From Gammaproteobacteria bacterium (GTDB lineage Bacteria > Pseudomonadota > Gammaproteobacteria > JAUZRS01), in NCBI GenBank assembly GCA_030950195.1, contig JAUZRS010000306.1:1-33829 (forward strand): DNA of 33,829 nt, in the 5' to 3' direction. Of the stretch, positions 1 to 23,811 are shown piece by piece. A program made the position numbers and the translations under genes. The notes beneath the pieces are model-generated. The model ran no database searches. It saw nothing but the letters and a program-made list of their open reading frames with translations, and was not told where the DNA came from. Every line of letters begins with the position of its first letter. Positions within the stretch are counted from its first letter, which is position 1.

Positions 1-140
1 ATAAAAAAGAGCTTTGTTTGCTTCTTGAAGATTATTATCTTCCCAGCGTTTCTATTTCTGCTATTTACCCACTCAACCGAAATTTGTCTCGAAGAGTTAG
101 GTTGTTGATTGATTTTCTTGCTGAAGAATTATCGAGATAA
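1..140 (+). CDS. LysR-family transcriptional regulator, C-terminal fragment (5' end outside window)
   Basis: The frame beginning at base 3 is open to TAA at 138-140 and encodes 45 residues. The tail includes LLEDYYLPSVSISAIYP followed by NRNLSRRVRLLIDFLAEEL, which has the typical ending of LysR-type regulators: a short loop, a strand with A-(I/V)-Y-P, then the basic L-(S/P)-x-(R/K)-V-R turn and the final helix IDFLAEEL. In this family the C-terminus closes effector-binding subdomain I. The DNA-binding helix-turn-helix and most of the effector domain lie upstream of the window, so the regulated genes and effector cannot be inferred. The call rests on one short but characteristic stretch. Confidence 0.75.
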   Translation, partial: KKELCLLLEDYYLPSVSISAIYPLNRNLSRRVRLLIDFLAEELSR

Positions 141-557
141 AAGGAGTCGGTTGGTTTTCATGCTTGTTTTAAAGGGAAGGCAATTGAGTGCTAAGATAAC
201 CGCCGGTATTTCTGGTGTATTCCATAAAAAGCTCGTCGAAGTTATCCACGACTGAGTTTTTTACCGATGCCCGTTTTAAACTGTGCGCGCTTCAGTAGGC
301 CAATCTATTGCTTAATAGATTTAACGCATACACTAAATTCTTTTTCATCTTTCACATACAACATTGCAAACATGTTCATGTTCATGGTGATGTCTGATGC
401 AAATTCTGTCCATGAGCGATGGTTGGATTTTTCAAGTAACTCTTTGGGGTGGAGGCTGGGGGCATCATATAACCAATGCTTCACTGTGGTAAGTAGTTAC
501 CAATTGGATAGTGATGGGATAAATGGTGTTTTATGAGCCTCACCCCAACCCACGAGT
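141..557. other. Intergenic region without a supported gene
   Basis: This stretch lies between the LysR stop codon and the stop codon of the minus-strand TPR gene. Apart from the probable terminator at 226-262 and a short fragment resembling the palindromic repeats found later in the window (541-558), I see nothing definite. An 89-codon plus-strand frame at 267-536 has no ribosome-binding site, no recognisable motif and an irregular composition, and I do not call it a gene. Confidence 0.5.
226..262. terminator. Probable Rho-independent terminator, possibly bidirectional
   Basis: CTC-GTCG (232-238) pairs with CGAC-t-GAG (249-256), with one bulged base and a 10-nt loop, and is followed by six T (257-262). 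Five A at 226-230 can pair with the T-run, so the element could work in both directions. It lies about 90 bp after the LysR stop codon and about 300 bp after the end of the minus-strand operon. Confidence 0.45.
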
Positions 558-558
558 T
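541..558. repeat. Short fragment resembling the right end of the 120-bp palindromic repeat
   Basis: The 18 bases at 541-558 differ at two positions from the corresponding part of the repeats at 22368-22487 and 24480-24599 (the CACCCCAACC-T-ACGA arm and its continuation). It could be a decayed half-copy of the same family, but it is short and the left arm is missing. Confidence 0.3.
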
Positions 559-1202
559 TAATCCTGAACAACCCCATCATAAAGGTAACGATTGGCCTCA
601 CTGTGTTTAGGTGAACGACGCAACACCTGTCGATAGGCGATCTCTGCTGCACTGCGATTCTTCAACCAAAGATACGCTCTGGCCTGATAAACCCAGCCAT
701 TGACATCGCTTGGATAGCGTTTATTAAACTCCTGAGTGTGTTTTAACAACGTCTGCCACTGGCGTAACCCTTCCTGCACCGCCATCAAACGTACATGAGC
801 GGTGTAACTCCACGGATCAAGAGCCAAGACTTGTTTTAAAAACCGTTCCGCTTCACTCCAGCGCAGTTGTGCCATCAGCGGCAAGGTAATGCCCAAACGG
901 GCATCCAAAGAGTCACTGTTGCGTGACAAGGCGCGCCGATAATTGCGAATAGAGTCGTTGTAATTGGCTTGTTGATAAAAGAGCCAAGCGTAACGCAACA
1001 CTCCATAGTCGCTGCTTGCCGGCCCTTCTAATAACGGTTCCAATACGGCTCCTGCTTTCGCGTATTTTCCCTCTGACTCCAGTTGATGGGATTGGCTCCA
1101 GAGATCTTCTGCCATAACCAACGGTGAAAGTAGAGTGGTCAACAGCAGTGTTTTACAGAGCTGGCCAAGAGTGAAACAACGATCTGTTTTATTACCAAAC
1201 AT
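558..1202 (-). CDS. Periplasmic tetratricopeptide-repeat protein
   Basis: 214 residues. Residues 1-31 form a signal peptide (basic start, LLLTTLLSP core, cleavage probably after VMA), so the protein is exported. The remainder is helical and carries TPR-like units around residues 67-100 (YAWLFYQQANYNDSIRNYRR), 101-135 (W-x-x-A-E-x-F-L-x-x-V-L-x-L-D-P) and 170-205 (AEIAYRQVLRRSP). TPRs are protein-protein scaffolds; no catalytic motif is present. It is the last gene of the six-gene minus operon, and its ATG lies inside the end of the upstream beta-barrel gene (11-nt overlap), so the two are probably co-translated. TPR/barrel pairs occur in export systems for polysaccharides and other molecules (YaiO- and PgaA-like proteins combine both parts), but that role is inference. 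Its partner or cargo is unknown. Confidence 0.8.
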   Translation of the reverse strand: MFGNKTDRCFTLGQLCKTLLLTTLLSPLVMAEDLWSQSHQLESEGKYAKAGAVLEPLLEGPASSDYGVLRYAWLFYQQANYNDSIRNYRRALSRNSDSLDARLGITLPLMAQLRWSEAERFLKQVLALDPWSYTAHVRLMAVQEGLRQWQTLLKHTQEFNKRYPSDVNGWVYQARAYLWLKNRSAAEIAYRQVLRRSPKHSEANRYLYDGVVQD

Positions 1203-2088
1203 AAGCTAAGTCCGTGTAGAGGTAGTTATTACGATACGCGTTATTGATCTCATTATTGGTGGAGTTTTGCACTCCAGCAGCGAGCAGCACCTGCCATTGA
1301 GTGCCGACATACCAGAGAGCCGACAATGACAACGGGCCACGATCCGTGTCGGTCAGGGTGTAGACCGCTGCCACATCGGGATCAACGCTGTAGAGTCGTT
1401 CGCCAAAGACCTTGTTCAGTTGCACTCGATCTGGCAGCAAACCCTTTGCTGAGTGAAACCAGTGGCTCCATTTTAGCTCCACAGCCTGAGCTGATGAGCG
1501 ACCTTGCGCTGTGCTTGAATCAGAGTAATCGAGTAGATAGCCCCTGACCTGCAACCAATCGGCTTTATGATTCATTTCCCAAGCCAGCGTGGGTGTCCAC
1601 TGAGAAACCGACAGGCCGTTTTCATAGCTTGAATAAGCAAAGCCCAGATCAAGCAGATAACGACCGGTGTAATCCGCAAACTGAATCGACGGCATCAGAG
1701 TCTGTACCTGCTGTTGCAGCGTTGTGGCTGAAAATGTTGTTTCGCTGTTGGTAAGGTAGCCGTCCAAGCGGGCGGTCACAATCCCCGGCAGCGATGTGGG
1801 GTAAAAATGCTGGCGACCACTGGCAAACCAACCCTGTTGGGAGATGTCTTGCGAGAGGCGGGTGGCGGTCACCACGCTGTGGTTTTGCCCTAAAGTAAAA
1901 CCGTATTGATCAAAATAATCTGCGGCAAAAAACAGATCGGCTCCGATTACTGAATCGCGCAGTTCAGAGTTACTGTAACTGCCGTAGAGTCCGCCGAGAT
2001 CCAGCCGCATTTTCCACGGATCAGCGAATAAAGTGGTTGAGCTTAATATTAAACCAGTACAAATAAAAAATCGAAACGGATGTTTCAT
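1192..2088 (-). CDS. Probable outer-membrane beta-barrel protein
   Basis: 298 residues from the ATG at 2088, which overlaps the stop of the preceding gene as ATGA and has GGGAG eight bases upstream; the longer frame to 2103 is rejected. Residues 1-22 are a signal peptide (FFICTGLILSSTTLFA). The mature part is rich in alternating aromatic/polar segments and short turns (MRLDLGGLYGSYS, GRYLLDLGFAYSSY, WLQVRGYLLDYS, WQVLLAAGVQNS), and ends in YLYTDLAYVW. A C-terminal aromatic residue and this strand pattern are typical of barrels inserted by the BAM complex. I do not recognise the subfamily; resemblance to YaiO-type barrels is possible because a TPR gene follows directly. Within its operon it is the likely outer-membrane exit or entry point. 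Confidence 0.7.
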   Translation of the reverse strand: MKHPFRFFICTGLILSSTTLFADPWKMRLDLGGLYGSYSNSELRDSVIGADLFFAADYFDQYGFTLGQNHSVVTATRLSQDISQQGWFASGRQHFYPTSLPGIVTARLDGYLTNSETTFSATTLQQQVQTLMPSIQFADYTGRYLLDLGFAYSSYENGLSVSQWTPTLAWEMNHKADWLQVRGYLLDYSDSSTAQGRSSAQAVELKWSHWFHSAKGLLPDRVQLNKVFGERLYSVDPDVAAVYTLTDTDRGPLSLSALWYVGTQWQVLLAAGVQNSTNNEINNAYRNNYLYTDLAYVW

Positions 2089-4271
2089 ATACGTTGCTCC
2101 CAACCTGGAATGCCTTCGTCTGCGGTTAAGCCACTGCCCTGCAATTGTGCTTCAATACAATATTGGTCCATCTGCAAGGAGAGCTGACAACAGCCTACAT
2201 TTGGTTTTATCATGGCGCTGCTTTTGGCCAGCAAGGTTTTACCTGGCCAGAGCGGCAGGCGGTGTTCCCCCAACTGAAACCAGACTTCCTTTTTGCTGTC
2301 CCAATGACGGCAATAAGTGCTCTGTAAACCGTGACCCAGTGGGTAACGCAGCAAGCAGAAGAGTTTTTGCCAACGGGAGAGTGGCAACAGCGCCAGCGAG
2401 GGACGGTCAGACCATTGTAAGGAGCCACTACTGAAGGGGGTTAGCCCTAACGCCAGCAGCCAAAGATCTAAGAAAGCATCGGCTTCACCCTCACGATCAT
2501 AAAAGGCTAACACACCACTCAATTCCTCAAAGGCGCTGCTGGCCTGCTGATCACTGATTAGGGTTAAACGCCCATCCAGACTCAGATCCACCTGCAAACG
2601 GCGTGGCAGCGAGGCAGTGTTAGTCTCGTTCACTTGGTAGGTTAAAAAACGCCCTACAGGCAGATGCAGTGGTGTTGCCAGTCGAGCATCGCGCACGGCG
2701 GCTTGCACCGTCTCGGCTTCAACGGGGATGACGCTGGTGCAAAACTGCGTGGCGTTGTCGCGTTTTAGCAGCACTGAGCTGAGATGAAAGGGGACGGTCG
2801 CAGCGCCTAAGGTGGCCGTTGCCTGTACTTGTAGATGCAGATGAGGCTGTGGTGAGCGCCCTGAATTCCCGCAGGCGGCAATCACTTCGCCTGCCTGTAG
2901 CCACTGTCCCTCTTCCACTTTGAGGCTGTTTTGACGCAGATGCGCCAACATCACATGTAAGCCAGAAGTGGTGCGCAGGAGAATAAAGTTGCCCCAATTG
3001 CGCTTGGTATTAACTTCGCCTGGAGCGTTGTCAGCCACATCGGAGACACAGCGCACCACCTGACCAGCAATGGGTGCCAATACTGGCAAGCCAAAGACAA
3101 AATAGTGTTCAACCTCTTTGCCGTTGGCGCGATAGCTTTTGCCACCTTCGGTGACAAAAAAATCCAAAGCGTGCTGCCACGGTGCTTTGTGGGTAAAGCG
3201 GCCATTAAAACCTTGGTAAATCTGGCAGGCTCCCATCAGCGGCATTACCAGTGGCAAGCTCGCTACGCCGCCGTTGCGTACCTGCGCTAAGCGACTGCGT
3301 TCGTAGTTTTTCTCGGGTAGATCGGGGCGCTCCAACAGCAGCCACGGTTTGGCCAGTGCTTGACGGTGTTGCAGTGCCATCAAAAGGGTGAAGGTGGTGA
3401 GTAAAAAGGGAATGGCCATAACGGAGAGGCCGAAGAGCAGCAGCATGGATTGGGTTGCAGCGGTTAGCAGCGCCGCCAAAGCTGCCCCCACCAGGGCTAA
3501 GAAAAACGCCGCCCAACTGGGTATCACAAAGACACCGCCCAGTGCCATTGCGGTAAGAATAAAGTTAAAACCCGCCCACGCCACCAGCGTGGGGTTGGGG
3601 TCGCCGGTTAAAATAACAAAGACCCAGTGGCCAATGCTGAAACCCGCCAGCGCCAACAGCGCCAGATAGCGTGAGGTGATTAACAGGCCGACAAACAGAA
3701 TCAGACCGGCTAAAGGGTGTGGGCTGAAAAAGGCCGAACCTAGGGCGATTAGAAAATTATCAAAAAAAGGATTAACAAAGGTGTCAATCGGAGCCAGTGG
3801 GGTTAAATAGTGGCTTAAATTACCGTAACTCTGAGCTGAAAAAGCGGTGGTCAGAGCCACCACTACAAAAGGCAGACTCAGCGCCGGTAGCCGTCCCAAA
3901 CGCCAGAAAAAATCCGATACCGCGACGGTCAAAAACACCGCTAAAACTGCACCGAGAACAATCAGTAAGGTTAAATATTGATCAAGCTGGTAGACCGCTC
4001 CCAGTGAAAGACCCACCAACAAGCTGTTGTAGAGGTGCAGGCCGCTGCTTAAATTTGCAAAGCGCAATAACTGCGCACTCAACAGACCCACCACCACCGC
4101 CAGCAGACCAGCCAAACCGATGTTGCTAAACCAGAACGTGGCCAGCAGAAACAGCCCGCCAACCCAAAGACGATTCGCAAACAGAATTGAGGCGTAGGCG
4201 CGCAGTATTCCTTCTATTCCTATCTTGAGCGCCTCCCATAGAGGCGGCCATGTTGCGCTGAAAAAGCTCAT
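2085..4271 (-). CDS. Urea transporter (UT) domain fused to M23 peptidase domain
   Basis: 728 residues. Residues 1-305 are almost entirely membrane segments and show the two-fold repeat of urea transporters: N-R-L-W-V-G-G-L near 33 and HPLAGLILFVGLLI near 185-198 (the P-L-x-G-L motif), with G-L-H-L-Y-N-S-L-L-V-G near 77-87 and AWAGFNFILTAMALGG near 231-246. Residues 355-490 form an M23/LytM zinc peptidase: T-H-K at 360-362, H367-A-L-D370-F, A-H444-L, and GNSGRSPQPHLHLQV with H477-x-H479. The first metal ligand is H361 or H367, because the usual H-x-x-x-D spacing is shifted. Residues 500-728 are an extension I do not recognise. Family knowledge: UT proteins passively conduct urea, and M23 enzymes cut peptide bonds in peptidoglycan or small peptides. 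The gene overlaps the barrel gene by ATGA and follows the decarboxylase gene by 10 bp. The cell side of the peptidase domain is uncertain. Confidence 0.85.
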   Translation of the reverse strand: MSFFSATWPPLWEALKIGIEGILRAYASILFANRLWVGGLFLLATFWFSNIGLAGLLAVVVGLLSAQLLRFANLSSGLHLYNSLLVGLSLGAVYQLDQYLTLLIVLGAVLAVFLTVAVSDFFWRLGRLPALSLPFVVVALTTAFSAQSYGNLSHYLTPLAPIDTFVNPFFDNFLIALGSAFFSPHPLAGLILFVGLLITSRYLALLALAGFSIGHWVFVILTGDPNPTLVAWAGFNFILTAMALGGVFVIPSWAAFFLALVGAALAALLTAATQSMLLLFGLSVMAIPFLLTTFTLLMALQHRQALAKPWLLLERPDLPEKNYERSRLAQVRNGGVASLPLVMPLMGACQIYQGFNGRFTHKAPWQHALDFFVTEGGKSYRANGKEVEHYFVFGLPVLAPIAGQVVRCVSDVADNAPGEVNTKRNWGNFILLRTTSGLHVMLAHLRQNSLKVEEGQWLQAGEVIAACGNSGRSPQPHLHLQVQATATLGAATVPFHLSSVLLKRDNATQFCTSVIPVEAETVQAAVRDARLATPLHLPVGRFLTYQVNETNTASLPRRLQVDLSLDGRLTLISDQQASSAFEELSGVLAFYDREGEADAFLDLWLLALGLTPFSSGSLQWSDRPSLALLPLSRWQKLFCLLRYPLGHGLQSTYCRHWDSKKEVWFQLGEHRLPLWPGKTLLAKSSAMIKPNVGCCQLSLQMDQYCIEAQLQGSGLTADEGIPGWEQRI

Positions 4272-4281
4272 CTATTTGAAC

Positions 4282-5688
4282 CTAAAGGGTGTTGGGTAAG
4301 CTGTTGGGGAAGGGTTGGCTCAGATGTTCCGGCATTCTCTCTTGTTGGGTCATCACTTCTAGGTTTTCAGCAGCGCGCAGTACATCGACTCCGCCGTGTT
4401 CATTGACCATCACCACATTGGGGCGGTATTCGATAAATTGCATCCACTGAGTGTTGTTGTACGCGCCCACAGGTCCAATCACCAGCGGCTCACCGGTTGG
4501 CAAGGGAGGTAACATGATGCTTTGGCGTATCACATCAATGTTCATGCACATGGGGCCATAAACCACGGTCTCCTCTGGTACGCCGTCGAGGTAGCGGGTT
4601 GGTTTCAAGCTGTGGTTGTACCAAAAGGCGGTGAAGAGCAGATTGATGCCCGCATCCACCACCACCGAGCGCCGACCATCGGGCAGCCGTTTGTTGGCCA
4701 CCACTGAGGTGATCAGTTCTTCGGCATCGTCCACCAGAGCGCGTCCGCTCTCCAGCACCAAGGTGGGGCGGTTTTTGCCTTGTGCTTCGCGTTGGTTGGT
4801 GGCTTCCAATAAAGTGTCGCAGATCGCTTCGGCGTACTGTTCGGCGCTGGGGACGATCTCTTCTGGTGGTAAATAAACCCCTTGCAGGGCGTTGTGCGAG
4901 GCGAATCCACCACCGATGTCGATGTATTCAATCAGACAGTCGGTGGCCTCTTCGACGCTCTCCATAAAGGCACACATAATGCGAACTTGAGAGGTGTAAG
5001 CACGCAATTCAGTGACAAAGGTACCGACATGGCTGTGCAGCCCGGTTAGTTTTAGATGCTCGCTTTGAGAAATGCGTTGTGCCGCTTCCATCGCTTGCCC
5101 CGATTCGATGTTAAAACCAAAGCGACTCCACGCTTCAGTGTAACCGGTATCAAAATTGAGGCGAATGGTCACCGGCACCACCTTGCCCGCTTCTCTGGCC
5201 ACCTCTTCTAGCAGCGCCAACTCGTCCAGATGGTCAATGTGCAGTTTGGCTCCCTCATCTACGGCACGGGTTAAAATTTTGCGGTTTTTATTCGGGCCGT
5301 TAAAGAGGATAAATTCACCAGGTACGCCCAGTGAGCGGGCTTTTTCATACTCAAAATCAGAGACCACTTCGGCCCAAGCCCCTTCTTGATGGAGAATATT
5401 ACAGACCGCTCCAATGTAGTTGGTTTTATAAGACCAGCCCTGAATCACATTAGGATAGCGGGCGCTAAAGGCGCGTTTTACGCGGCGGACATTTTCTCGC
5501 AACCGACGTTCGGAAAAGACAAACAGCGGTGAGCCGTACTCTTTAACCAGTTCGGTTACGGGCACACCATCAATGGCATCACGCACCGATTCGTAACGAT
5601 TGGCTCCGAATTTATTTAATCCACCCGCCCGATGTGGGGTCAGGGTAGGGCGTTGCCATTTTTTTTCTCTGCGGTTTTCATTGTTCAT
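4282..5688 (-). CDS. PLP-dependent fold-III decarboxylase (diaminopimelate/ornithine decarboxylase superfamily)
   Basis: 468 residues. All parts of a fold-III decarboxylase are visible: the PLP lysine K88 in W-S-Y-K-T-N, HSHVG (218-222), the glycine loop D-I-G-G-G-F (257-262) and E-S-G-R (313-316) for phosphate binding, G-P-M-C-M-N-I-D (378-385) in the position of the catalytic Cys/Asp loop, and G-A-Y-N-N-T (408-413) near the C-terminus. Such enzymes remove a carboxyl group from an amino acid or carboxy-amine (lysA, nspC and speA families). The residues that set lysA specificity are not clearly conserved, so I do not call it lysA; its place between an ATP-grasp gene and a transporter gene suggests a dedicated pathway. 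ATG at 5688 has AAGGA nine bases upstream. A 52-bp gap separates it from the ATP-grasp gene. Confidence 0.85.
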   Translation of the reverse strand: MNNENRREKKWQRPTLTPHRAGGLNKFGANRYESVRDAIDGVPVTELVKEYGSPLFVFSERRLRENVRRVKRAFSARYPNVIQGWSYKTNYIGAVCNILHQEGAWAEVVSDFEYEKARSLGVPGEFILFNGPNKNRKILTRAVDEGAKLHIDHLDELALLEEVAREAGKVVPVTIRLNFDTGYTEAWSRFGFNIESGQAMEAAQRISQSEHLKLTGLHSHVGTFVTELRAYTSQVRIMCAFMESVEEATDCLIEYIDIGGGFASHNALQGVYLPPEEIVPSAEQYAEAICDTLLEATNQREAQGKNRPTLVLESGRALVDDAEELITSVVANKRLPDGRRSVVVDAGINLLFTAFWYNHSLKPTRYLDGVPEETVVYGPMCMNIDVIRQSIMLPPLPTGEPLVIGPVGAYNNTQWMQFIEYRPNVVMVNEHGGVDVLRAAENLEVMTQQERMPEHLSQPFPNSLPNTL

Positions 5689-5740
5689 TTTAATGCTTCC
5701 TTATCCGTGCTTTTTGCAGCGACCGATTGATTTATTTTGC

Positions 5741-6790
5741 TTAGATTCGACAGCCGTTCATGACCACCGATTCATACTCCGCCAGCGGTACCACACACTC
5801 ATCGGCGTAGCGGATGTACAACATGCCCGGTTTGGAGGGGGGGAATTCTGCTAGCTCTTCGCCCATCGCCAACTGCACCAGGGCGTAGGGCAGATTGCGT
5901 CCCAGTCCGGCGGAGAAATAGACCCAAGCGGGGAAGCGTGGGTTGATCTCAATCAGGTGATAACGGCCTTCGTCATCGCGCATCACCTCGACCTCCAAGG
6001 GACCGCGCCAATCGAGGTTTTTGACCAATTTTTCCGCTGCCGAGAGCAGGGTTTGATCGTGAATGGCGATGCCTGCCCACGCTTTGCCTTTGTCGGTCAG
6101 ACCTTTTTTGCGCATCATGACCGAACCTAAAAGGTTGCCTTTGCCGTCACCCAAGCCGGTTAAGTTGACCTCTTCGCCTTTGACAAAACGCTGCACCAAC
6201 ACCGGCAGCCCCCACTGAGCGGCGATGCTGTGAAAAGCCTCTGCGGCTTCATCGGCGCTGTGGGCGATTTTGGCATCGTAAAATAGCCCTTTAACCACCA
6301 AAGGGTAGCGCCAGCCTTCCTCTTGGCAGCGATAGAAAAAGCCCGCTTGCGTCACTGATTGGATTTCTGGGCACTCTATGCCCGCTAATTTGGCTACCTC
6401 GTGCAGACGATCTTTGTTGCGCAGTTGCAGCTGTTCACCGCTGGGGATAAAGAGTTTGATCCCCATCTGTTCCAGTACGGGTTGCAGACGAATCATGCTC
6501 GGCAGCTCAGCATCAAGGCAAGGGATGAGCAGATCAAAGGGGTCGGCGGCGTGGATCTGTTGCAGCCGTGCCAGCAGCGCCTCTTCTCCGGCGGAAGGGT
6601 AGGGCAGCAGGTAACTGACATCGCAGTATTGCGGCAGATAAAAACCGGGGTCTAGGGCATCGTAACCGAGACCGATCAGACGACCGTCAAAATCTTCAGC
6701 ATCGCGCAGACTGTGAGCGACGGCCAGGCCAGGGCCGGGATTGTCGGGGCGGGCGTTCATCCCTGTGATGGCAACGCGCAGTTGATTCAT
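5741..6790 (-). CDS. ATP-grasp carboxylate-amine ligase-like protein
   Basis: 349 residues, no signal peptide, cytosolic. The N-terminal 105 residues look like the pre-ATP-grasp Rossmann-like domain (V-A-I-T-G-M-N, then G-L-G-Y-D, and L-I-P-C-L-D-A-E near 87-95). The ATP-grasp core follows: R-N-K-D-R-L (near 123-129), YPLVVKG for the ATP-binding lysine, V-L-V-Q-R-F-V-K-G-E-E for the strand with acidic residues, and L-I-E-I-N-P-R-F with the Mg-binding Glu and Asn. It resembles the PurK/CarB-like group rather than the RimK-like ligases of graspetide pathways. Such enzymes join a carboxylate to an amine through an acylphosphate. Start overlaps the upstream stop as ATGA (6787-6790), so translation is coupled to the PqqD-domain gene. 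Substrates are unknown; the neighbouring decarboxylase suggests amino-acid-derived ones. Confidence 0.85.
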   Translation of the reverse strand: MNQLRVAITGMNARPDNPGPGLAVAHSLRDAEDFDGRLIGLGYDALDPGFYLPQYCDVSYLLPYPSAGEEALLARLQQIHAADPFDLLIPCLDAELPSMIRLQPVLEQMGIKLFIPSGEQLQLRNKDRLHEVAKLAGIECPEIQSVTQAGFFYRCQEEGWRYPLVVKGLFYDAKIAHSADEAAEAFHSIAAQWGLPVLVQRFVKGEEVNLTGLGDGKGNLLGSVMMRKKGLTDKGKAWAGIAIHDQTLLSAAEKLVKNLDWRGPLEVEVMRDDEGRYHLIEINPRFPAWVYFSAGLGRNLPYALVQLAMGEELAEFPPSKPGMLYIRYADECVVPLAEYESVVMNGCRI

Positions 6791-7608
6791 TTCAGTTGTC
6801 CTTTTAACAGACGCGAGAAATCCATTAGGTCTCGCTCAACTTCGTGGGCATCGGCTTCGTACTCGTCTACCACACGCTGTACTAGGGTCTTGGCATTCAG
6901 CCCTTCTTGCAGCAGTTTGAGTAAAATTAAGCCACTGTCATTGACCGAAAAGCTGTGGCCGCTGACAGGATCAAAGACAAAGCCGTTGTCGTTCAGAGCC
7001 AGTCGTTTGACGCTCTCGCTATTGGGCAGTGCGGGGTTTTCCATTGCGTTCTCTTCCCATGGTAGTTGACTCATTTCACTCTCCTGCGATTCATAATCTG
7101 AGCCGATGGCTCGTGGCATACGGGCTAAATTTTGCCAAACGCTGTCCATCAGGACGCGGCTGGGAATGCCCAACGGGCGATTGGGCAATATTTCGATACG
7201 GGCAAACAACTGCGCCCAAATGTCATCACGAAAACGCAGCAGGTGCAGCCGCAGCGTTTCATCCACCATCGGTGGGGCAAACAGCAGCGACAGTAAGGCG
7301 CTGTCGCTGGCGATGTTGCGCAAACCGTTTAACAGGCCTTGACGGCCTTGAGGCATACCGTTGACGATCAGATTCAATCGTTTGCAGCGTGACTCCATCC
7401 AGAGCAGAAAAACGCTCTGTTTGTTGGGCAGCAGTCGAAACATCACCCCTTCTGAAACTCGGGACAGGCGTGCCAATACTTTGGTGGTTACCATTGCCAG
7501 TTGATCTGCCTCGGCAAGACGATCCAGCGCGGTCAACAGTGCTTTGATGCGTCGATCCTTGAGCAGCTCTCGGAGCGGTTGATCCAGTTGTGATGATGAT
7601 CTGTTCAC
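6787..7608 (-). CDS. TetR-like DNA-binding domain fused to PqqD domain
   Basis: 273 residues from a GTG at 7608. Residues 19-70 match a TetR N-terminal helix-turn-helix: helix I-K-A-L-L-T-A-L-D-R-L-A, T-T-K-V-L-A-R-L-S-R-V-S-E-G-V as the helix-turn-helix, then M-F-R-L-L-P-N-K-Q-S-V-F, equivalent to the usual LYRHFPSKEAL. Residues 75-170 are helical and may be the ligand/dimer domain. Residues 198-271 are a PqqD domain (LALNDNGFVFDPVSGHSFSVN, then a helical half ending FSRLLKGQL). PqqD domains bind leader peptides or tether small substrates. Met179 is preceded by AGGAG six bases away, so a free 95-residue PqqD protein could also be made. The first gene of the operon, it probably binds the inverted repeat in its own promoter. 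The TetR part is diverged, which is the main uncertainty. Confidence 0.75.
   Translation of the reverse strand: MNRSSSQLDQPLRELLKDRRIKALLTALDRLAEADQLAMVTTKVLARLSRVSEGVMFRLLPNKQSVFLLWMESRCKRLNLIVNGMPQGRQGLLNGLRNIASDSALLSLLFAPPMVDETLRLHLLRFRDDIWAQLFARIEILPNRPLGIPSRVLMDSVWQNLARMPRAIGSDYESQESEMSQLPWEENAMENPALPNSESVKRLALNDNGFVFDPVSGHSFSVNDSGLILLKLLQEGLNAKTLVQRVVDEYEADAHEVERDLMDFSRLLKGQLK
7072..7085 (-). promoter_or_regulatory. Internal ribosome-binding site and ATG for a free PqqD protein
   Basis: On the minus strand AGGAG (7081-7085) lies six bases before an in-frame ATG (7072-7074) that corresponds to Met179 of the TetR-PqqD frame. This spacing is optimal and the product would be exactly the PqqD domain with a short leader (95 residues). 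The site is better than the one in front of the GTG at 7608. Confidence 0.5.
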
Positions 7609-7633
7609 GGCTTTCCCTTATCTCGTGGAGCTA

Positions 7634-7662
7634 TTTGTAAGTGAAAGTGTTTGCTTTCACAA
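7634..7662 (-). promoter_or_regulatory. Putative promoter of the six-gene operon with embedded operator
   Basis: On the minus strand TTGTGA (7657-7662) and TACAAA (7634-7639) are separated by 17 bp and each matches the sigma-70 consensus at four of six positions. Between and overlapping them is a perfect inverted repeat, GTGAAAG (7641-7647) and CTTTCAC (7654-7660) around a 6-bp centre. A 20-bp dyad in the spacer, 33-52 bp before the GTG of a TetR-like gene, is the usual arrangement for autorepression by TetR proteins. Binding is inferred. Confidence 0.55.
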
Positions 7663-7814
7663 CAGGGATTGTTCTGTAGGCTGAAAAATGTGACGGAGTT
7701 GGGCTATTGGTGGAGTTTGTTGTTACAAATCAGCTGTTGTTGTTGATGCTCTTCATGTAATGTTCGCCCTAAATTTTCCCAGCACACGCAAGCTCAATTG
7801 GTGACACAGAACCT

Positions 7815-8684
7815 ATGAATGACAAAACGATAGCAACCCACAACGGTAATTTTCACGCAGATGATGTGTTCAGTATTGCTGCATTTAGGCTCCTATTCTC
7901 CTCTTTTAAGCTGATTCGCACCCGAGATTTAGAGCGGATCGCTAAGGCTGATATTGTGGTCGATGTTGGTGGTGAATATGACCCAGAGACGGGGCGTTTT
8001 GATCATCATCAGCGCGGTGGTGCTGGTGAGCGCGAAAACGGAATTCCTTACTCTTCATTTGGTTTGATTTGGCAGAAGTACGGTTTAGAGCTGTGTGAAG
8101 GCAATCAAAAGGTGGCCAATGCCGTTGATGCCGGTCTGGTCTCAACGATTGATGCCATTGATTGTGGTCATGTCGAAGGTGTTTCTGAAGGCATTAGCCT
8201 GAGCCAAACCATCGGCATGTTTAACCCAACGTGGCAAGAAAAGAGTCACTTTGATAGTTGCTTTGATGAAGCGGTCGAATTTGCTTCGCGGGTTTTAACC
8301 CGCTTTATTGCTTCGGCTAACGGTGGCATCAGTGCAAAAGAGATTGTGGCCAAAGCGATTGATCATGCCGATGACCCAAGGGTGATTGTGTTGGAAAGAT
8401 ACACGCCGTGGAAAAGAACGGTTCAGGCACTGTCTAAAGAAGCCCTTTACATGGTTTATCCTTCTCATACGGGGCAGTGGAGAGTTCAAACCGTACCTGT
8501 TGAGCTGGGTTCATTTGAAAATAGAAAACCGTTGCCTAAACCGTGGGCGGGTCTGTCGGACAGAGAGTTGCAAGAGGTGACGGGGCTTGAGGATGCGATG
8601 TTCTGCCATAACGGTCTGTTTATCGCGGGTGCAGAGTCCTTTGAGAGCGCGATGAAAATGGCCTCTATAGCGATTGAGGCGTAA
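7815..8684 (+). CDS. MYG1 family protein (DHH-like putative exonuclease)
   Basis: 289 residues. The N-terminal T-H-N-G-N-F-H-A-D-D-V (8-18) and V-D-V-G-G-E-Y-D-P followed by G-R-F-D-H-H-Q (near 59-65) are the signature of the MYG1/UPF0160 family, related to DHH phosphoesterases. These conserved His and Asp residues would bind metal. Eukaryotic MYG1 has been described as a 3'-5' RNA exonuclease; the bacterial members are mostly uncharacterised. The C-terminal half contains the family blocks V-L-E-R-Y-T-P-W and V-Y-P-S-H-T-G-Q-W, and the conserved W-A-G-L near 247. Length is normal for bacterial members. The gene is monocistronic, divergent from the operon to its left and convergent with the lipoprotein gene to its right. 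The ribosome-binding site is weak. Confidence 0.9.
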   Translation: MNDKTIATHNGNFHADDVFSIAAFRLLFSSFKLIRTRDLERIAKADIVVDVGGEYDPETGRFDHHQRGGAGERENGIPYSSFGLIWQKYGLELCEGNQKVANAVDAGLVSTIDAIDCGHVEGVSEGISLSQTIGMFNPTWQEKSHFDSCFDEAVEFASRVLTRFIASANGGISAKEIVAKAIDHADDPRVIVLERYTPWKRTVQALSKEALYMVYPSHTGQWRVQTVPVELGSFENRKPLPKPWAGLSDRELQEVTGLEDAMFCHNGLFIAGAESFESAMKMASIAIEA

Positions 8685-8754
8685 TAAATTGGCTTGTAGA
8701 AGCAGCTCAACGGGTCAAAGAACAAAGGCTACATGATCAAAGCCGCTCTTATGA

Positions 8755-9531: not shown

Positions 9532-10296
9532 TTATAAAAACCCCGACAGACCGCGTTTTGAGGGTGAATCCAACCACTGTTGCAGCCGTTTTATCTCTGC
9601 GGTCTGCTCTAGTTCAGACAAATCTTTTGTGCCATTTTTAATGAGGCGGTAGGCTTGCTCGACGATTTTAAAGGCCGCGCCTTTGATGCCGTTGCGGCGC
9701 AGACCAATGCTGTTGAGGCGGTAATGTTTCAACGGCTGACCGGCGCTCATGGTGAAGGGCAGAATGTCTTTGCGGGTACCGGTAAAGGCGGCGATCATTG
9801 AGTAGGCACCAATGCGGCAGAATTGATGAACCAGTGCGCCCGCACCGAGAGTGACGCGGTCGTCAACGTGGGTGTGGCCACCCAAACCGGCGTTGTTGGC
9901 CATAATCACGTAATCCCCCAGCGTGCAGTCGTGACCAACGTGAGTGTTGCCCATCAGATAACAGTGGTTGCCAATCCGAGTGATGCGTTCATCAGAGGTG
10001 GCGCGGTGAATGGTGGCCGCTTCACGAATGACGTTGTGCGCGCCGATCTCGACCCAGGTTTCGCGCTGATCAAAACTGAGGTCTTGTGGCAGATCGCCCA
10101 GCACCGCATGGGCGTGGATTTTATTGCCGTTGCCCATACGAACGAAGTTGTGAATGACCGCATGAGGGCCGATTTCGCAGTCATCACCGATGATGACATG
10201 ATCGTCGATAATGGCGTAGGGGTGGATTTTTACCCGCTCACCCAGCTGAGCTTGGGCGGAGACGATGGCGCTGGGGTGGATCTGATCTGTCATCAA
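9532..10296 (-). CDS. lpxA: LpxA-type UDP-N-acetylglucosamine O-acyltransferase
   Basis: 254 residues. The protein is a left-handed beta-helix of hexapeptide repeats (I-H-P-S-A-I, V-K-I-H-P-Y-A-I-I, C-E-I-G-P-H-A-V-I). The LpxA active site is present: N-T-H-V-G-H-D-C-T with catalytic H122 (E. coli H125), V-H-Q-F-C (156-160), and G-L-R-R-N-G in the C-terminal helical part. The segment L-P-Q-D-L-S-F matches V-N-Q-D-L-K-Y of E. coli. LpxA moves a hydroxyacyl chain from ACP to the 3-OH of UDP-GlcNAc, the first step of lipid A synthesis. Here it stands apart from the usual lpxD-fabZ-lpxA-lpxB order and follows rnd by 7 bp, so it may be a relocated or second copy. AGG eight bases before the first of two adjacent ATG codons supports this start. 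Confidence 0.85.
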   Translation of the reverse strand: MMTDQIHPSAIVSAQAQLGERVKIHPYAIIDDHVIIGDDCEIGPHAVIHNFVRMGNGNKIHAHAVLGDLPQDLSFDQRETWVEIGAHNVIREAATIHRATSDERITRIGNHCYLMGNTHVGHDCTLGDYVIMANNAGLGGHTHVDDRVTLGAGALVHQFCRIGAYSMIAAFTGTRKDILPFTMSAGQPLKHYRLNSIGLRRNGIKGAAFKIVEQAYRLIKNGTKDLSELEQTAEIKRLQQWLDSPSKRGLSGFL

Positions 10297-10303
10297 TAAA
10301 ACC

Positions 10304-11467
10304 TCACTCTGGGTTGCGGTTGAGGGTCAGTTTTCCCCCTTTGACCGACAGGTTAGCTGTCCCATTGAGCAGCGCTTGCAGATCGGCACCGATCATTTTA
10401 TTGCGCCAGCCGCTGAGCAGAATCAGGTCAGTGTCGCCTTGGGTAAATTTCAGCAATTCTTTGCGTTGGGTGATGACATTGGGGTTGAGGGACTGTTCTT
10501 CTGCTCGTTGGCGCACCATCGCCATCAGCAGATCAGCAACCGCTTCATGCTCTGCTTTGGGGCGTTTCTTTTTCATAAAGGCTGGCAGAGGTTGAGGCTG
10601 TTGCTGACGGGCTTCACTGAGCAGTTTCAGCAGCACTTTGCCGGTCTGTTTAACAAACCGATCTGTGAGGCCGCGAATGTGCCCCAGCTCGGTCTGATTG
10701 TTTGGTTTTTGCAGTGCCAGATCGAGTATTACCTCGTCTTTGAGCAGCCATTTGCGCGGCAGATTTTTTTTCTGCGCCTGCTCTTCACGCCAAATGCAGA
10801 GCTGCTGGGCGATGGAGAGGGACTCCCCTTTCAGTCGTTCTAAGCCGCGCAGTTTTTGCCAGATGGTGTTGGGGTCAATCTGATAACGCCCTGTGTCTGT
10901 GAGGGCTTGAAAGTCGTCGCTGAGCCATTGAAGGCGATCTTTCTGTTGCAGCTGTTGTTGCAGTTTTTTGTAGACCTGGCCTAGGTAGATCACGTCGTCG
11001 GCAGCGTAGTTGATCTGCGCTTCGGGCAGTGGGCGGCGGGTCCAGTCGGCGCGGGAGTGGGCTTTTTCCAGCTGCACACCAAGCACTTCATTAACCAAGT
11101 TGGCGTAACCGATCTGTTCGTTGTGGCCGAGCAGTGGCGCGGCGATTTGGGTATCAAACAGCGGGCTGGGCAGGCGACCATTGAGCTGGAAGAGAATCTC
11201 CAGATCTTGGCTACCCGCGTGAAAAATTTTGGTGATATTGGGGTTATCAAACAGCGGTAGCAACGGGTCGAGGTTGGGCAGCGCGAGGGGATCAATGCAG
11301 GCGGTGATCTCATCGGTAGCCAGTTGCAGCAGGCAGAGCTGTGGGTAGTAGGTTTTTTCTCGTAAGAACTCGGTGTCCAGTGCGATCCAAGGGGCATCGT
11401 GCAGCTGTTGGCAGAGTTGTTCGAGGGCGGCGGGGGTGTCGATGTATTGAATGGGGTTTGCGTTCAT
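10304..11467 (-). CDS. rnd: Ribonuclease D
   Basis: 387 residues from ATG at 11467; the 35 extra codons of the longer frame do not resemble RNase D. The DEDDy exonuclease domain is complete: W-I-A-L-D-T-E-F (Asp and Glu), F-H-A-G-S-Q-D-L-E, and Y-A-A-D-D-V-I-Y with the Tyr-x3-Asp motif. Residues near 200-285 form the first HRDC domain (W-x-x-E-x-A-x-x-K-N-L-P-R-K-W-L-L-K-D) and a second weaker HRDC region follows. Length is close to the 375-residue E. coli enzyme. RNase D trims 3' ends of tRNA precursors and other structured RNAs. It is transcribed divergently from argG and is probably co-transcribed with lpxA. Confidence 0.92.
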   Translation of the reverse strand: MNANPIQYIDTPAALEQLCQQLHDAPWIALDTEFLREKTYYPQLCLLQLATDEITACIDPLALPNLDPLLPLFDNPNITKIFHAGSQDLEILFQLNGRLPSPLFDTQIAAPLLGHNEQIGYANLVNEVLGVQLEKAHSRADWTRRPLPEAQINYAADDVIYLGQVYKKLQQQLQQKDRLQWLSDDFQALTDTGRYQIDPNTIWQKLRGLERLKGESLSIAQQLCIWREEQAQKKNLPRKWLLKDEVILDLALQKPNNQTELGHIRGLTDRFVKQTGKVLLKLLSEARQQQPQPLPAFMKKKRPKAEHEAVADLLMAMVRQRAEEQSLNPNVITQRKELLKFTQGDTDLILLSGWRNKMIGADLQALLNGTANLSVKGGKLTLNRNPE

Positions 11468-11534
11468 GGTGGCAGAATAGCAGGCTTGCCCGTTTCTGGG
11501 TAGAGGGCTGGAAAAAGTGAATAAAAAGAGCCTC

Positions 11535-11564
11535 TCACAACACTGGGCCGCTTTGGTGTAGAAT
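11535..11564 (+). promoter_or_regulatory. Candidate argG promoter
   Basis: TAGAAT (11559-11564) matches the -10 consensus at five of six positions and is followed by a GC-rich discriminator (CCCCGC). The -35 is weak (TCACAA at 11535-11540 with an 18-bp spacer). It lies about 50 bp before the argG start in the 145-bp divergent region with rnd. No clear ARG-box was found. Confidence 0.35.
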
Positions 11565-11612
11565 CCCCGCACTGTTTTTACGCCTATCTCAGCCTTTTAG
11601 GGGAATTTGTTC

Positions 11613-12830
11613 ATGTCGGATACAAAAAAAGTCGTTTTAGCTTACTCGGGTGGTCTGGATACCTCGGTGATCTTGAAGTGGTTGGAAGAGGAGCACGACT
11701 GCGAAGTGGTCACGTTCACCGCTGACATCGGTCAAGGCGAAGAGGTTGAACCGGCGCGCGCCAAAGCGGAAGCGATGGGCGTGAAAGAGATTTACATCGA
11801 AGATCTGCGCGAAGAGTTTGTCCGTGATTATGTTTATCCCATGTTCCGCGCCAACGCCATTTACGAAGGTGAATACTTGCTTGGTACTTCTATTGCCCGC
11901 CCGCTTATCGCCAAACGTCTGGTGGAGATCGCGCAAGAGACCGGTGCCTATGCCATCTCCCACGGTGCGACGGGTAAAGGCAACGATCAGATCCGTTTTG
12001 AGCTGGGTGCCTATGCCTTGATGCCTGATGTCAAAGTGATTGCACCGTGGCGTGAGTGGGATCTGCTCTCGCGGGAAAAATTGATGACCTACGCTGCCAA
12101 ACACGGTATCCCCGTGGATTACGCCAAAGCAGGTAAAAAATCCCCTTATTCAATGGACGCCAATCTGCTGCACATCTCTTACGAAGGTGGCATGTTGGAA
12201 GATCCGTGGGCGGAGGCCAACGACGAAGAGATGTGGCGCTGGACACGCTCTCCTGAGCAAGCCCCTGATCAAGCCACTTACATCGAGCTGGGGTTTGAAA
12301 AGGGCGATGTGGTCTCCATTGACGGCGCGGCCATGACTCCAGCACAGGTGCTGACGTATTTGAATAAAGTCGGTGGTGAAAACGGCATTGGTCGGGATGA
12401 CATCGTTGAAAATCGTTACGTGGGAATGAAATCCCGTGGTTGTTATGAAACCCCAGGTGGCACCATTTTGCTCAAAGCGCATAGGGCGATGGAGTCGTTA
12501 ACGATGGATCGTGAATTGATGCACCTGAAAGATGAGTTGATGCCCCGTTACGCACAGATGATCTACAACGGTTACTGGTGGGCACCTGAGCGCACCGCTA
12601 TGCAAGCCTTGATTGATGCCTCGCAGGAGAATGTCAACGGCATCGTGCGTCTCAAGCTCTATAAGGGCAACGTGATGGTCGCAGGTCGTCAGTCCGTCAG
12701 CGATTCGTTGTTTGATGAAAACATTGCGACCTTTGAAGACGATGCCGGTGCTTACGATCAGAAAGACGCGGACGGTTTCATTAAACTCAATGCTCTGCGC
12801 TTGCGCATTGCCGCCAATCGTCGAGGTTAA
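11613..12830 (+). CDS. argG: Argininosuccinate synthase
   Basis: 405 residues from ATG at 11613, chosen because AGGGGA ends eight bases upstream; the TTG two codons earlier is not needed. The N-type ATP pyrophosphatase loop A-Y-S-G-G-L-D-T-S is at the N-terminus, followed by F-T-A-D-I-G-Q, the citrulline/aspartate-binding [15 protein letters not shown] and the [11 protein letters not shown] block. It condenses citrulline and aspartate with ATP to argininosuccinate, the penultimate step of arginine synthesis. Length is typical of the short (type I) form. It starts a plus-strand run argG-gloA-DUF2892; argH is not in the window. Confidence 0.97.
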
Positions 12831-12832
12831 TT

Positions 12833-13234
12833 ATGCGAATTTTGCACACCATGTTGCGGGTCGGTGATTTGGATCGTTCGATTCAGTTTTACACCGAGGT
12901 GTTGGGGATGAAACTTTTGCGTCGTAAGGAGTATCCAAAGGGCGAATTCACATTGGCCTTTGTGGGTTACGGCTCAGAAGCAGAAAATGCGGTGCTGGAG
13001 TTAACCTACAATTGGGATACCTCAAGCTATACTCAAGGTTCTGGTTTTGGTCATCTGGCTCTGGAAGTGGACGATGTCTATCAGGCGGTCAGTCAAATTC
13101 GAGATAAGGGGGGTAAAGTACTTCGTGAGGCGGGGCCGATGAACGCAGGTCAAACGATCATTGCTTTTGTTGAAGATCCCGATGGCTATGAAATTGAGTT
13201 GTTGGGTACAGAGCGTCATCAAGAACCATTGTAG
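12833..13234 (+). CDS. gloA: Lactoylglutathione lyase (glyoxalase I)
   Basis: 133 residues, the size of E. coli GloA (135). The four metal ligands known for the E. coli enzyme are at identical positions: H5, E56, H74 and E122. The signature [11 protein letters not shown]-x-F-Y is intact. The enzyme isomerises the hemithioacetal of methylglyoxal and glutathione to S-lactoylglutathione. The short form lacking the extra loop is usually Ni/Co-activated. It begins two bases after the argG stop with GAGG overlapping the end of argG, so it is translated from the same message. Confidence 0.95.
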
Positions 13235-21808: not shown

Positions 21809-22394
21809 AACCTCTGCGGGGGGCAGCAATCGGCTGCGCATCATCGGTGGGCGTTGGCGGGGGCGTAAGTTGAGTTTTCCTGATGCTCTGGGGCTGAGGC
21901 CGACGGGGGATCGTCTGCGCGAAACTCTGTTTAATTGGTTGCAGCCTTATTTAGCCGAAGGGCGTTGTCTGGATCTGTTTGCGGGCAGCGGTGCTTTGGG
22001 TTTTGAAGCCGCTTCTCGTGCCGCCGCTGAGGTGGTGATGCTGGAGGCAAATCCACAGGTGGCGCGCAGTTTGGCGGCCAATATCGAGCTGTTAGACGCG
22101 GATCAAGTCCAGCTACAAAACATGAAAGCTGAGCATTATTTGCAACAGACTCCAACACCGTTTGATCTTGTTTTTCTCGATCCGCCGTTTGCTTTTGATA
22201 TTTTGCCGCAGATTTTTGTCTTACTGGAGCAAGGCTGGTTGGCAGAGGGGGCGCTGATTTACATTGAGCAGCCGTTGCGTACTCAGTTGGTGTTTCCTAA
22301 GTCTTGGCAGATTTTGAAAGAGAAACGTATGGGAGAGGTGCAGGTGTGGTTGTTGGAGGTGGGGGATCTGGATGTATCTGGTAGGTTGGGGTGA
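21780..22394 (+). CDS. rsmD: 16S rRNA (guanine-966-N2)-methyltransferase, C-terminus altered
   Basis: 204 residues from ATG at 21780 with GAGG six bases upstream; the start lies within the last codons of the M16 gene (29-nt overlap). N-terminal R-I-I-G-G-R-W-R-G-R-K is the RsmD signature, D-L-F-A-G-S-G-A-L-G (65-74) binds S-adenosylmethionine and L-D-P-P-F (133-137) is the catalytic motif. RsmD makes m2G966 in helix 31 of 16S rRNA. After L-L-E-V the normal tail (A-E-stop, kept in the copy at 23815-23920) is replaced by ten residues, G-D-L-D-V-S-G-R-L-G, read from a 7-bp linker and the repeat at 22368; that repeat supplies the TGA stop. The change lies outside the active site and is probably tolerated. 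Confidence 0.93.
   Translation: MSKKQRVATRTSAGGSNRLRIIGGRWRGRKLSFPDALGLRPTGDRLRETLFNWLQPYLAEGRCLDLFAGSGALGFEAASRAAAEVVMLEANPQVARSLAANIELLDADQVQLQNMKAEHYLQQTPTPFDLVFLDPPFAFDILPQIFVLLEQGWLAEGALIYIEQPLRTQLVFPKSWQILKEKRMGEVQVWLLEVGDLDVSGRLG
22265..22360 (+). repeat. Direct repeat, copy 1: 3' end of rsmD
   Basis: These 96 bases inside rsmD recur at 23815-23910 with a single difference (A at 22334, G at 23884). The distance between copies is 1,550 bp. Copy 1 continues into a 7-bp linker and the palindromic repeat, whereas copy 2 continues into the apparent original stop codon. Confidence 0.95.
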
Positions 22395-22487
22395 TAACCC
22401 CAACAAACATCCATCGTGGGTATTTTATGTTGGGGTTGCCACCCCAACCTACGAATTGGGTTACTTAACAAGTCTTATGGTTTGTAT
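22368..22487. repeat. 120-bp palindromic repeat, copy A
   Basis: The sequence recurs at 24480-24599 with two differences. It is bounded inside by GTAGGTTGGGGTG (22381-22393) and its exact reverse complement CACCCCAACCTAC (22440-22452). Each end also contains a smaller hairpin (TTGGGGT with ACCCCAA, separated by 4 bases). The remaining right part is not palindromic. It looks like a non-coding REP/MITE-like element; no transposase is present. Open frames read across it are identical in both copies and are not genes. Confidence 0.85.
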
Positions 22488-22573
22488 CTACTCGCCCTCA
22501 TTGAAAACCTCAGGCAAAGACACAGTTTGGTATGAAATTCTATGTTTTTAGTAAATAAATAGGTTGATGTTGA

Positions 22574-23773
22574 ATGAAAATAATCTCAAGCTCAAAAAGT
22601 ATTGACTTGGTTCTTGTAAGGTTGATGGAGAAATATAATAAATATTATATTGCAACTGCTTGGGCTTCACCTGGGTCTAAGGCTTCCAAGAAATTGCTAG
22701 AAAATAAGGATAATATAGTGAAAATGGTGGTTGGGACACATTTTCACCAAACGCACCCCGATTTTATTAAAGATTATATTGATAATGAAAGCGTTAGGTT
22801 TATATTGAACCCCAGCGGGGTTTTTCATCCTAAAGTCTATCTGTTCTATCATGATGTGAATGATTGGGAGTGTATTTTAGGGAGTGCAAATTTCACTAAA
22901 TCTGCTCTTACTAAGAATTCAGAAATTGTTGTGCATATTAAAAGTAGTGATGGAGGGGTTGATAAGGTTTACAATGATATTGTAAATACGATTAATAGTT
23001 ATTGGGTTAATGCAGATGTGATGGATTCTGCTGATCTCGCGGGCTATAGGAGCGTTTGGGAAAGAGATTGCAAGGCTGTAGATAAATTGTCTGAGAAATA
23101 TGGGGGGGCAAACCCAAAAAAATCACTTATGAAATCAGTTTTATTTACATCTGATTGGAGTAAATATTATTCACGTATAATAAAAGATAAATATAATTCG
23201 TTTGACAGAAGGCTTGAGTTGTTAGAAATAGTGAAAGGCTACTTTTCTAAAGTAGTATATTTTTCGGAATTAACAGAATTGCAGCGACGAGAAGTGGCTG
23301 GTATTGCAACTCAAAAGCAAAGCAATTCAAATGTTGAATGGGGCTGGTTTGGCAGTATGACTGGAGCCGGAAAGTTTCAGAATAGAATAAATAAAAATAA
23401 TCCATTTATATCTAAATCACTAGATAAAATCCCTCTATTGGGAGAAGTCAGAAAAGAAGATTATGAACAGTTTGTACGTTTGTTTTGCCAAGCTTTCCCT
23501 GATGGTGGGGCTGGGGTGGCCATAGCAAGTAGGCTGCTGGCTATGAAGCGCCCAGATTATTTTGTGTGCTTGGATACACAAAATAAATCGGGGCTATGTG
23601 ATGAATTTGGAATTTCTAGAAAAGTTTCATTTGATGGGTATTGGGATGATATTGTTGAGCGAATTATTGATTCAGTGTGGTGGAACTCAAAAGAACCTAA
23701 GGATGATTTTGAATGTAAGGTGTGGCATGTTCGTGTAGCAATGCTGGATTCAATATATTATAAAGAAGAATAA
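22574..23773 (+). CDS. PLD-family nuclease-like protein, probable defence gene
   Basis: 399 residues, clearly more AT-rich than its neighbours (long runs of AAT/ATA codons). Residues 1-130 form a single phospholipase-D nuclease half: F-H85-P-K87-V-Y-L-F, then I-L-G-S-A-N-F-T-K-S-A-L near 101-112 and N-S-E-I-V at 115-119, the H-x-K / G-S-x-N / E set used by PLD nucleases including the restriction enzyme BfiI. A single motif means it must dimerise to form the active site. Residues 180-399 are a second domain I do not recognise, with A-F-P-D-G-G-A-G-V-A-I-A-S-R-L-L, R-P-D-Y-F-V-C-L-D and a final V-A-M-L-D-S-I-Y-Y. It may recognise DNA, by analogy with BfiI, but it is not an evident B3 domain. 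No methylase gene is adjacent. Lying between two repeat pairs in the rsmD tail suggests recent acquisition. No strong ribosome-binding site is seen. Confidence 0.75.
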   Translation: MKIISSSKSIDLVLVRLMEKYNKYYIATAWASPGSKASKKLLENKDNIVKMVVGTHFHQTHPDFIKDYIDNESVRFILNPSGVFHPKVYLFYHDVNDWECILGSANFTKSALTKNSEIVVHIKSSDGGVDKVYNDIVNTINSYWVNADVMDSADLAGYRSVWERDCKAVDKLSEKYGGANPKKSLMKSVLFTSDWSKYYSRIIKDKYNSFDRRLELLEIVKGYFSKVVYFSELTELQRREVAGIATQKQSNSNVEWGWFGSMTGAGKFQNRINKNNPFISKSLDKIPLLGEVRKEDYEQFVRLFCQAFPDGGAGVAIASRLLAMKRPDYFVCLDTQNKSGLCDEFGISRKVSFDGYWDDIVERIIDSVWWNSKEPKDDFECKVWHVRVAMLDSIYYKEE

Positions 23774-23811
23774 TTTTTTCTTGTTGAGGGTTGCTCTAAG
23801 GTGTTGACTTG

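Follow-up and report, generated by a model that had tools for sequence, protein, structure and literature searches.

A group of six genes on the minus strand of the window, the whole 33,829-nucleotide stretch of DNA analysed here, is by its sequence a genuine conserved unit, and the operon that these genes form probably makes a small amide-type compound that is passed through a urea-channel-like pore. The component families are known, but the gene set has no published description in the literature searched, which left most subscription papers outside its coverage; within that literature, the statement of an earlier sequence-only reading that no characterised pathway carries this set still stands. 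Conservation across phyla, a clean loss in a sister species and an operator of its own together point strongly to a pathway, for a metabolite or a nutrient, that has yet to be discovered.

Layout, conservation and loss of the operon

The window is one of the 323 contigs of a 2.76-Mb source genome. The list of open reading frames confirmed six ORFs on the minus strand between 558 and 7608, at the positions given by the sequence-only reading, and Pfam and NCBIfam assigned their products to the families TPR, UT with Peptidase_M23, Orn_Arg_deC (ornithine/DAP/arginine decarboxylases), ATP-grasp and PqqD. According to the ORF coordinates, the PqqD and ATP-grasp genes overlap by 4 bp, gaps of 52 bp and 10 bp lie on the two sides of the decarboxylase gene (towards the ATP-grasp and the UT-M23 gene, respectively), the UT-M23 and barrel genes overlap by 4-19 bp depending on the choice of start codon, and the barrel and TPR genes overlap by 11 bp. 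The coordinates and Pfam families thus bear out the six genes with overlaps or short gaps described earlier. None of the six proteins matched a PADLOC anti-phage defence model, and a defence island was rejected on this ground. Plasmid carriage was rejected as well, as the decarboxylase was encoded on no plasmid.

In a first survey, named genomes were scanned with the UT-M23 protein as the query. Five further loci were found, and each of them that reached far enough had PqqD, ATP-grasp, decarboxylase, UT-M23, barrel and TPR in identical order. A wider survey used profile searches built from the ATP-grasp alignment. Matches occurred in 12 genomes out of 369 for the class, 37 out of 399 for the phylum, 20 out of 74 for the family f207 and 2 out of 198 for a Nitrospirota phylum set; these draws contain already known carriers and are therefore not unbiased rates. 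The ATP-grasp gene was followed by the decarboxylase gene in 100% of the regions read, and the decarboxylase gene by UT-M23 in 31 of the 32 assessable loci (the sole exception being L116); the core order of PqqD, ATP-grasp, PLP decarboxylase and UT-M23 was found in 31/32. Its hosts are Gammaproteobacteria, further classes of the same phylum and Nitrospirota. An identical order in such distant genomes shows that the arrangement is more than chance. The claim that the genes are one functional unit is upheld by this order across phyla, and the separation of the genes in relatives, which had been named as its refutation, is the opposite of what we found.

A PqqD domain was present in every readable locus. 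The barrel and TPR genes lay beside the core in 20 loci, in one of them across a split contig; two loci had the TPR gene without the barrel gene and three (L037, L038 and L092) had neither. The operon unit recurs in dozens of distantly related bacteria.

In a tree of the ATP-grasp and decarboxylase proteins, the Nitrospirota copy paired with a gammaproteobacterial copy with strong support, from which we conclude that the gene set moved between phyla as a unit. The spread inside f207 was patchy, and this fits gain and loss of the genes as a unit. In G001, the sister species and the one genus-mate that was compared, the flanks were 95-96% identical in DNA and the operon was absent. The locus there consists of the left flank with about 140 bp of a degraded TPR 3' end, then a few bases, and then the sequence from window position 7715. 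This locus is explained by a single deletion of about 7 kb that removed operator, promoter and every gene as far as the end of the last. The DNA to the right of window position 8739 was on a separate contig in G001, and this points to an additional rearrangement adjoining the deletion.

Enzymes, channel and secreted proteins

The ATP-grasp ligase (5741-6790, minus strand; 349 aa) was recognized by Pfam, by its invariant residues and by AlphaFold and Foldseek. The ATP/Mg residues E266, E268, E281, N283, R285, K126 and K167 were invariant (25/25), and the AlphaFold model had a pLDDT of 91. Foldseek found 2pn1 as the best match, followed by carboxylases and the L-amino acid ligases 3vot and 4wd3. 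Because carboxylases, CPSase and amino-acid ligases were returned alike, the substrate is unreadable from the structure. Three variant loci (L103, L106 and L120) carry an extra glutamine-dependent asparagine synthetase, which we counted as strengthening the amide theme.

The PLP decarboxylase of the alanine-racemase fold (4282-5688, minus strand; 468 aa) had 7kh2, an N-citrylornithine decarboxylase, as its best profile match (296 bits, compared to 216 bits for DAP decarboxylase), and its residues K88, H218, C381 and D385 were invariant (24/24). A housekeeping LysA was rejected: the score against the curated LysA model was 225.9 bits, below the cut-off of 297.9, and a genuine LysA (542 bits) was encoded on a different contig of the genome. 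The sequence-only reading had this fold acting on amino acids. That view is sharpened here, as the sequence is nearest to the acyl-amino-acid type of FigC/FslC (again by the 296-bit match) and not to a plain amino-acid decarboxylase. FigC decarboxylates N-citrylornithine and is part of the rhizoferrin pathway in Francisella, and its relatives SbnH, AcsE, MccE and BtrK are enzymes of specialised metabolism (PMC7857480). In FigC, R387 and H357 dock citrate, roles that were inferred from docking (PMC7857480). In our alignment, T327, Y331 and M355 of FigC (PMC7857480 numbering) were kept as T353, Y357 and M382, and R387 and H357 were replaced by Q414 (24/24) and I384 (23/24), respectively. With Gln and Ile in place of the citrate-binding pair, the substrate is probably an acylated amino acid whose far end is neutral. 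No NIS synthetase was found beside the decarboxylase among the operon proteins by Pfam and NCBIfam.

The third core protein (2085-4271, minus strand), identified by Pfam and a structure model, combines a UT-type channel (residues 1-318), an M23-type zinc hydrolase domain (about 340-500) and an unassigned beta-rich C-terminal domain (about 500-728). Its Pfam scores were 168 bits for UT and 50 bits for Peptidase_M23, and the mean pLDDT of the model was 90. In the model, residues 1-318 resemble bacterial and mammalian urea channels, with a TM of 0.86 to dvUT, and the M23 part had a TM of 0.75 to an M23 domain and a fold like the LytM, DipM and EnpA domains. For the C-terminal 220 residues or so, no solved structure stood out when the model was compared. 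The slot residues F31, L85, F182 and L239 were conserved. In UT channels, the Gln/Glu that line the slots and both Thr form hydrogen bonds with urea; here the positions of the slot-adjacent Gln/Glu were mostly Ala, Ser or Gly, the first Thr was Ser and the second was mostly Ala. The domain is a UT by fold in which most of the polar urea ligands have been lost.

Ten membrane helices were modelled in the UT-M23 protein, with both ends on the same side, and the loops contained 5-20 Lys and Arg inside versus 0-3 outside in 22/22 homologues. This positive-inside bias agrees with the N-in/C-in topology of the UT family. The helices and the bias together suggest that the M23 domain faces the cytosol, alongside the enzymes, and we predict it to be cytosolic. 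The periplasmic or extracellular location of M23 peptidoglycan hydrolases is thus not what the predicted topology gives; a periplasmic peptidase was rejected on the topology of all 22 homologues, and the view that it trims peptides on the periplasmic side is not supported. The zinc-site residues H361, D370, H444, H477 and H479 were present in 22/22 homologues. A precedent for a cytosolic M23 domain is the APH-M23-aminotransferase family PRK06148, which appeared as a 15-bit NCBIfam match.

The three loci with the asparagine synthetase also encode a second UT, in which TPRs are inserted between the two UT halves. By topology this insert would be periplasmic, and the occurrence of TPR and UT in one polypeptide supports a contact between the UT and TPR proteins in the main form. 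In G365, a divergent copy consists of PqqD, two ATP-grasps, a decarboxylase and a UT without M23, so that the minimal core common to all variants is PqqD, ATP-grasp, decarboxylase and UT.

The two remaining genes encode secreted proteins. The predicted outer-membrane beta-barrel (1192-2103, minus strand; 303 aa) matched no Pfam or NCBIfam family. A signal peptide was read from its sequence, the likely true start being the ATG of codon 6, and its homologues had a C-terminal Trp (16/16) and an alternating pattern; a signal peptide and a C-terminal aromatic residue are the sequence marks of outer-membrane barrels. The periplasmic TPR protein (558-1202, minus strand; 214 aa) was recognized by Pfam TPR and a signal peptide, and its gene adjoins the barrel gene in most relatives.

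The TetR-PqqD gene and its predicted operator

The first gene (6787-7608, minus strand; 273 aa, GTG start) encodes a TetR-type DNA-binding domain fused to PqqD (Pfam E 2e-8 for PqqD). Pfam did not call TetR_N in the window protein and called it in four homologous PqqD proteins. Many loci encode PqqD on its own, as a protein of about 90 aa, whereas in nine of those compared it forms the C-terminal portion of a TetR-like protein. Because about five changes between the two forms are needed on the tree, the fusion was gained or lost several times.

The predicted operator (7641-7660, minus strand; 20 bp), located 52 bp upstream of the TetR-PqqD start, is GTGAAAGCAAACACTTTCAC, a perfect 7+7 inverted repeat (GTGAAAG-N6-CTTTCAC) with a 6-bp spacer. 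Such a repeat is not significant by itself within the window (shuffle p ~0.15), and therefore its significance rests on its recurrence upstream of TetR-PqqD genes. The site was found with 0-3 mismatches upstream of 17/17 of these genes in the window and the family f207, mostly at a distance of 10-52 bp from the start codon; in an outlier, L071, the site has 3 mismatches and is 210 bp away. No site within 3 mismatches was found at 17 stand-alone PqqD genes, two of them in f207. The operator was also absent at the fused genes outside f207 (L050, L051, L058, L060 and L082), as expected if those repressors drifted. Nine whole genomes were scanned for the site. The window genome contained a single exact site and no other at up to 2 mismatches, one exact site occurred in G372, and there was none in G001 and three other genomes. 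Second sites with 1-2 mismatches in G400, G437 and G406 were each located beside unrelated genes; they look like chance occurrences, and a wider regulon was rejected for the same reason.

The sequence-only reading had placed a putative promoter upstream of the operon. A sigma-70 consensus scan of this region called none, and what stands out there is the conserved operator. A TTGTGA-17-TACAAA pair straddles the operator in the window, and as the scan called no promoter, we mention it as a suggestion only. An HTH domain together with a palindromic site upstream is the pattern of an autoregulated TetR operon. The proposed TetR-PqqD regulator is thus maintained for some lineages, by fusion and operator, where the gene is a predicted autoregulator, and fails for the others, where PqqD stands alone.

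Possible pathway and relation to known systems

We propose that an amino-acid conjugate is joined and decarboxylated in the cytosol by the enzymes of the operon, and that the small product leaves through the UT-type pore towards the TPR and barrel proteins, an account that we consider evenly poised between right and wrong. PqqD, as a subunit or a sensor domain, would work with the ATP-grasp enzyme, which would form an amide bond between an amino acid and a second acid or amine. The FigC-like decarboxylase would then strip the alpha-carboxylate from the joined amino acid, and the M23 domain, at the pore mouth, may hydrolyse the conjugate or trim it. Diffusion through the pore could take a small uncharged product into the periplasm; there the TPR protein would bridge the channel and the outer-membrane barrel. 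TetR-PqqD would repress the operon from 7641-7660 until a pathway compound, or the ligase itself, makes it dissociate. Conservation, catalytic residues, topology and the operator come from sequence; the order of the reactions, the direction of transport, the product, the client of PqqD and the contact of TPR and barrel are what we infer. A passive UT pore could also import. Three observations were counted against this proposal: no precursor peptide was found, the core occurs without barrel and TPR in L037, L038 and L092, and the UT pore is without most of its polar urea ligands. A more specific form is vectorial biosynthesis, in which the hydrolase at the inner mouth of the UT releases the product of the PqqD-assisted ATP-grasp and decarboxylase into the pore, the TPR adaptor and barrel carry it onward and the repressor senses the pathway state via PqqD; we hold this form tentatively and consider it somewhat unlikely.

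It is conceivable, though we think it unlikely, that the chemistry takes place on a peptide scaffold, as in RiPP or carrier-peptide systems. PqqD would recognize an unlinked peptide, the ATP-grasp enzyme would add a residue, the decarboxylase would act on the bound residue and M23 would free the product for exit through the UT. The PqqD domain in each readable locus, as in RiPP recognition, and the intact zinc site of a predicted cytosolic M23 favour this scheme. However, the G365 variant has no M23, the operator search gave no second conserved site that could mark an unlinked precursor gene, and about 29 loci had no conserved small ORF nearby. When 1703 small ORFs close to the operons were compared all against all, no general candidate for a precursor peptide emerged, in agreement with the earlier note that no such short gene was present. 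Uptake or salvage seems less likely again. UT proteins are passive pores with a known part in urea uptake, and a barrel and UT that import an amide or urea-like compound, a cytosolic M23 that cleaves it and enzymes that recycle it would suit the conserved zinc site and the barrel and periplasmic protein of most loci. Nevertheless, some copies have neither barrel nor TPR, the conserved set is without urease, amidase or ureohydrolase, and in all the relatives that have been studied an ATP-consuming ligase and a FigC-type decarboxylase serve biosynthesis (PMC7857480).

The decarboxylase is structurally closest to an enzyme that makes the siderophore rhizoferrin (PMC7857480), and the product might be a metal-binding conjugate of the acylated, decarboxylated diamine or amino alcohol type. 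We regard such a metallophore as quite improbable, because by Pfam and NCBIfam the operon genes lack an NIS synthetase, a TonB receptor and a Fur-type feature, the citrate-binding residues of the decarboxylase are replaced, and a charged chelator is unlikely to leave by a UT pore. Envelope maintenance, in which a periplasmic M23 would hydrolyse peptidoglycan or act as an activator while the remaining genes modify an envelope component, we find about as improbable. Peptidoglycan is the usual target of M23 and the fold matches LytM, DipM and EnpA, but the ten helices and the N-in/C-in bias in 22/22 homologues put M23 in the cytosol, M23 is dispensable in the G365 variant, and UT and the decarboxylase would have no role.

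If the proposed export pathway is true, the UT (SLC14) family would reach beyond urea, and PqqD would serve as the sensor domain of a repressor. We know of no earlier UT pore with an attached enzyme domain. The unique operator offers a direct handle for switching the operon on and seeking its product.

In kind, the operon most resembles those that make specialised metabolites and have an exit of their own, and the coupling of UT and hydrolase would be a new principle. The UT-M23 protein has the fold, the ten-helix inverted repeat and the Phe/Leu slots in common with the UT/SLC14 urea channels (dvUT 3k3f, UT-A and UT-B). It differs from them in that the slot Gln/Glu are mostly Ala/Ser and the second-half Thr mostly Ala, in its fusion to a predicted cytosolic M23 and a new C-terminal domain, and in being encoded in a predicted biosynthetic operon and not beside urease. 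The M23/LytM metallopeptidases (DipM, ShyA, EnpA and lysostaphin) share its zinc ligands and fold; they mostly act on peptidoglycan outside the cytosol, whereas this M23 is predicted to be cytosolic and channel-bound. FigC/FslC of the Francisella rhizoferrin pathway is the closest solved relative of the decarboxylase over its whole length, with the fold, the PLP lysine and the CM motif in common. The partner in our operon is, however, an ATP-grasp ligase and not an NIS synthetase, and the proposed exit is a UT pore and not an MFS transporter. The L-amino acid ligases BL00235 and RizA and the CPSase-like 2pn1 have the fold and catalytic residues of the ATP-grasp enzyme, but an identity of 14-20% is too remote for a substrate assignment. 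Finally, the PqqD fold domain of the RiPP recognition elements is common to all copies of the operon, which differs from those systems in having no precursor peptide or radical-SAM partner and, in several lineages, a fusion of PqqD to TetR.

Loss of the operon in the sister species

When window 1-7714 was compared with positions 9938-13217 of the corresponding locus (L044) in the sister species G001, we found that the entire operon was missing from the latter, and this absence is a loss. A decayed 3' end of the TPR gene persists there, abutting DNA that precedes the promoter, with transposase-like ORFs immediately outside. Synteny between the window and G001 is broken at window 8684-8739. In G001, MYG1 is located on contig C8, whereas the lpxA/rnd side is on contig C3; a rearrangement or an assembly join therefore adjoins the operon at this point.

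Duplicate copies and other regions of the window

The ATP-grasp gene occurred twice in each of the genomes G749 (contigs C17 and C136), G426 (C60 and C182) and G220 (C114 and C115), and the operon is therefore probably present twice in them. Elsewhere in the window, the GC content falls to 0.40 at 22001-24000, where a gene at 22574-23773 encodes a nuclease domain of the PLD/NgoFVII type, and this region is likely a recent insertion. A 901-aa ORF on the minus strand (30843-33548) had no Pfam matches at E 1e-5.

Gene neighborhoods and variant sets in relatives

Immediately 5' of PqqD, a FecR-domain protein and a TPR-barrel protein were encoded at L103 10733-13176, L106 10912-14456 and L104 6860-9444, and perhaps substitute for the separate barrel and TPR genes. 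In two gammaproteobacterial genomes, this position was occupied by a conserved protein of 221-229 aa with no assigned family (L032 2803-3468 and L035 5205-5894). In family f104 (L089, L090 and L091), the DNA ahead of the operon, upstream of PqqD, contains a histidine kinase gene, called by Pfam in L090, along with related genes for signalling. An asparagine synthetase adjoins a UT protein at L103 1897-5035, L106 2072-5329 and L120 1894-4867, and this UT protein carries TPR repeats between its two UT halves. The set in genome G365 (L097 3248-7301 and L096 7312-8401), comprising PqqD, two ATP-grasps, a decarboxylase and a UT protein without M23, is a divergent relative of the system.
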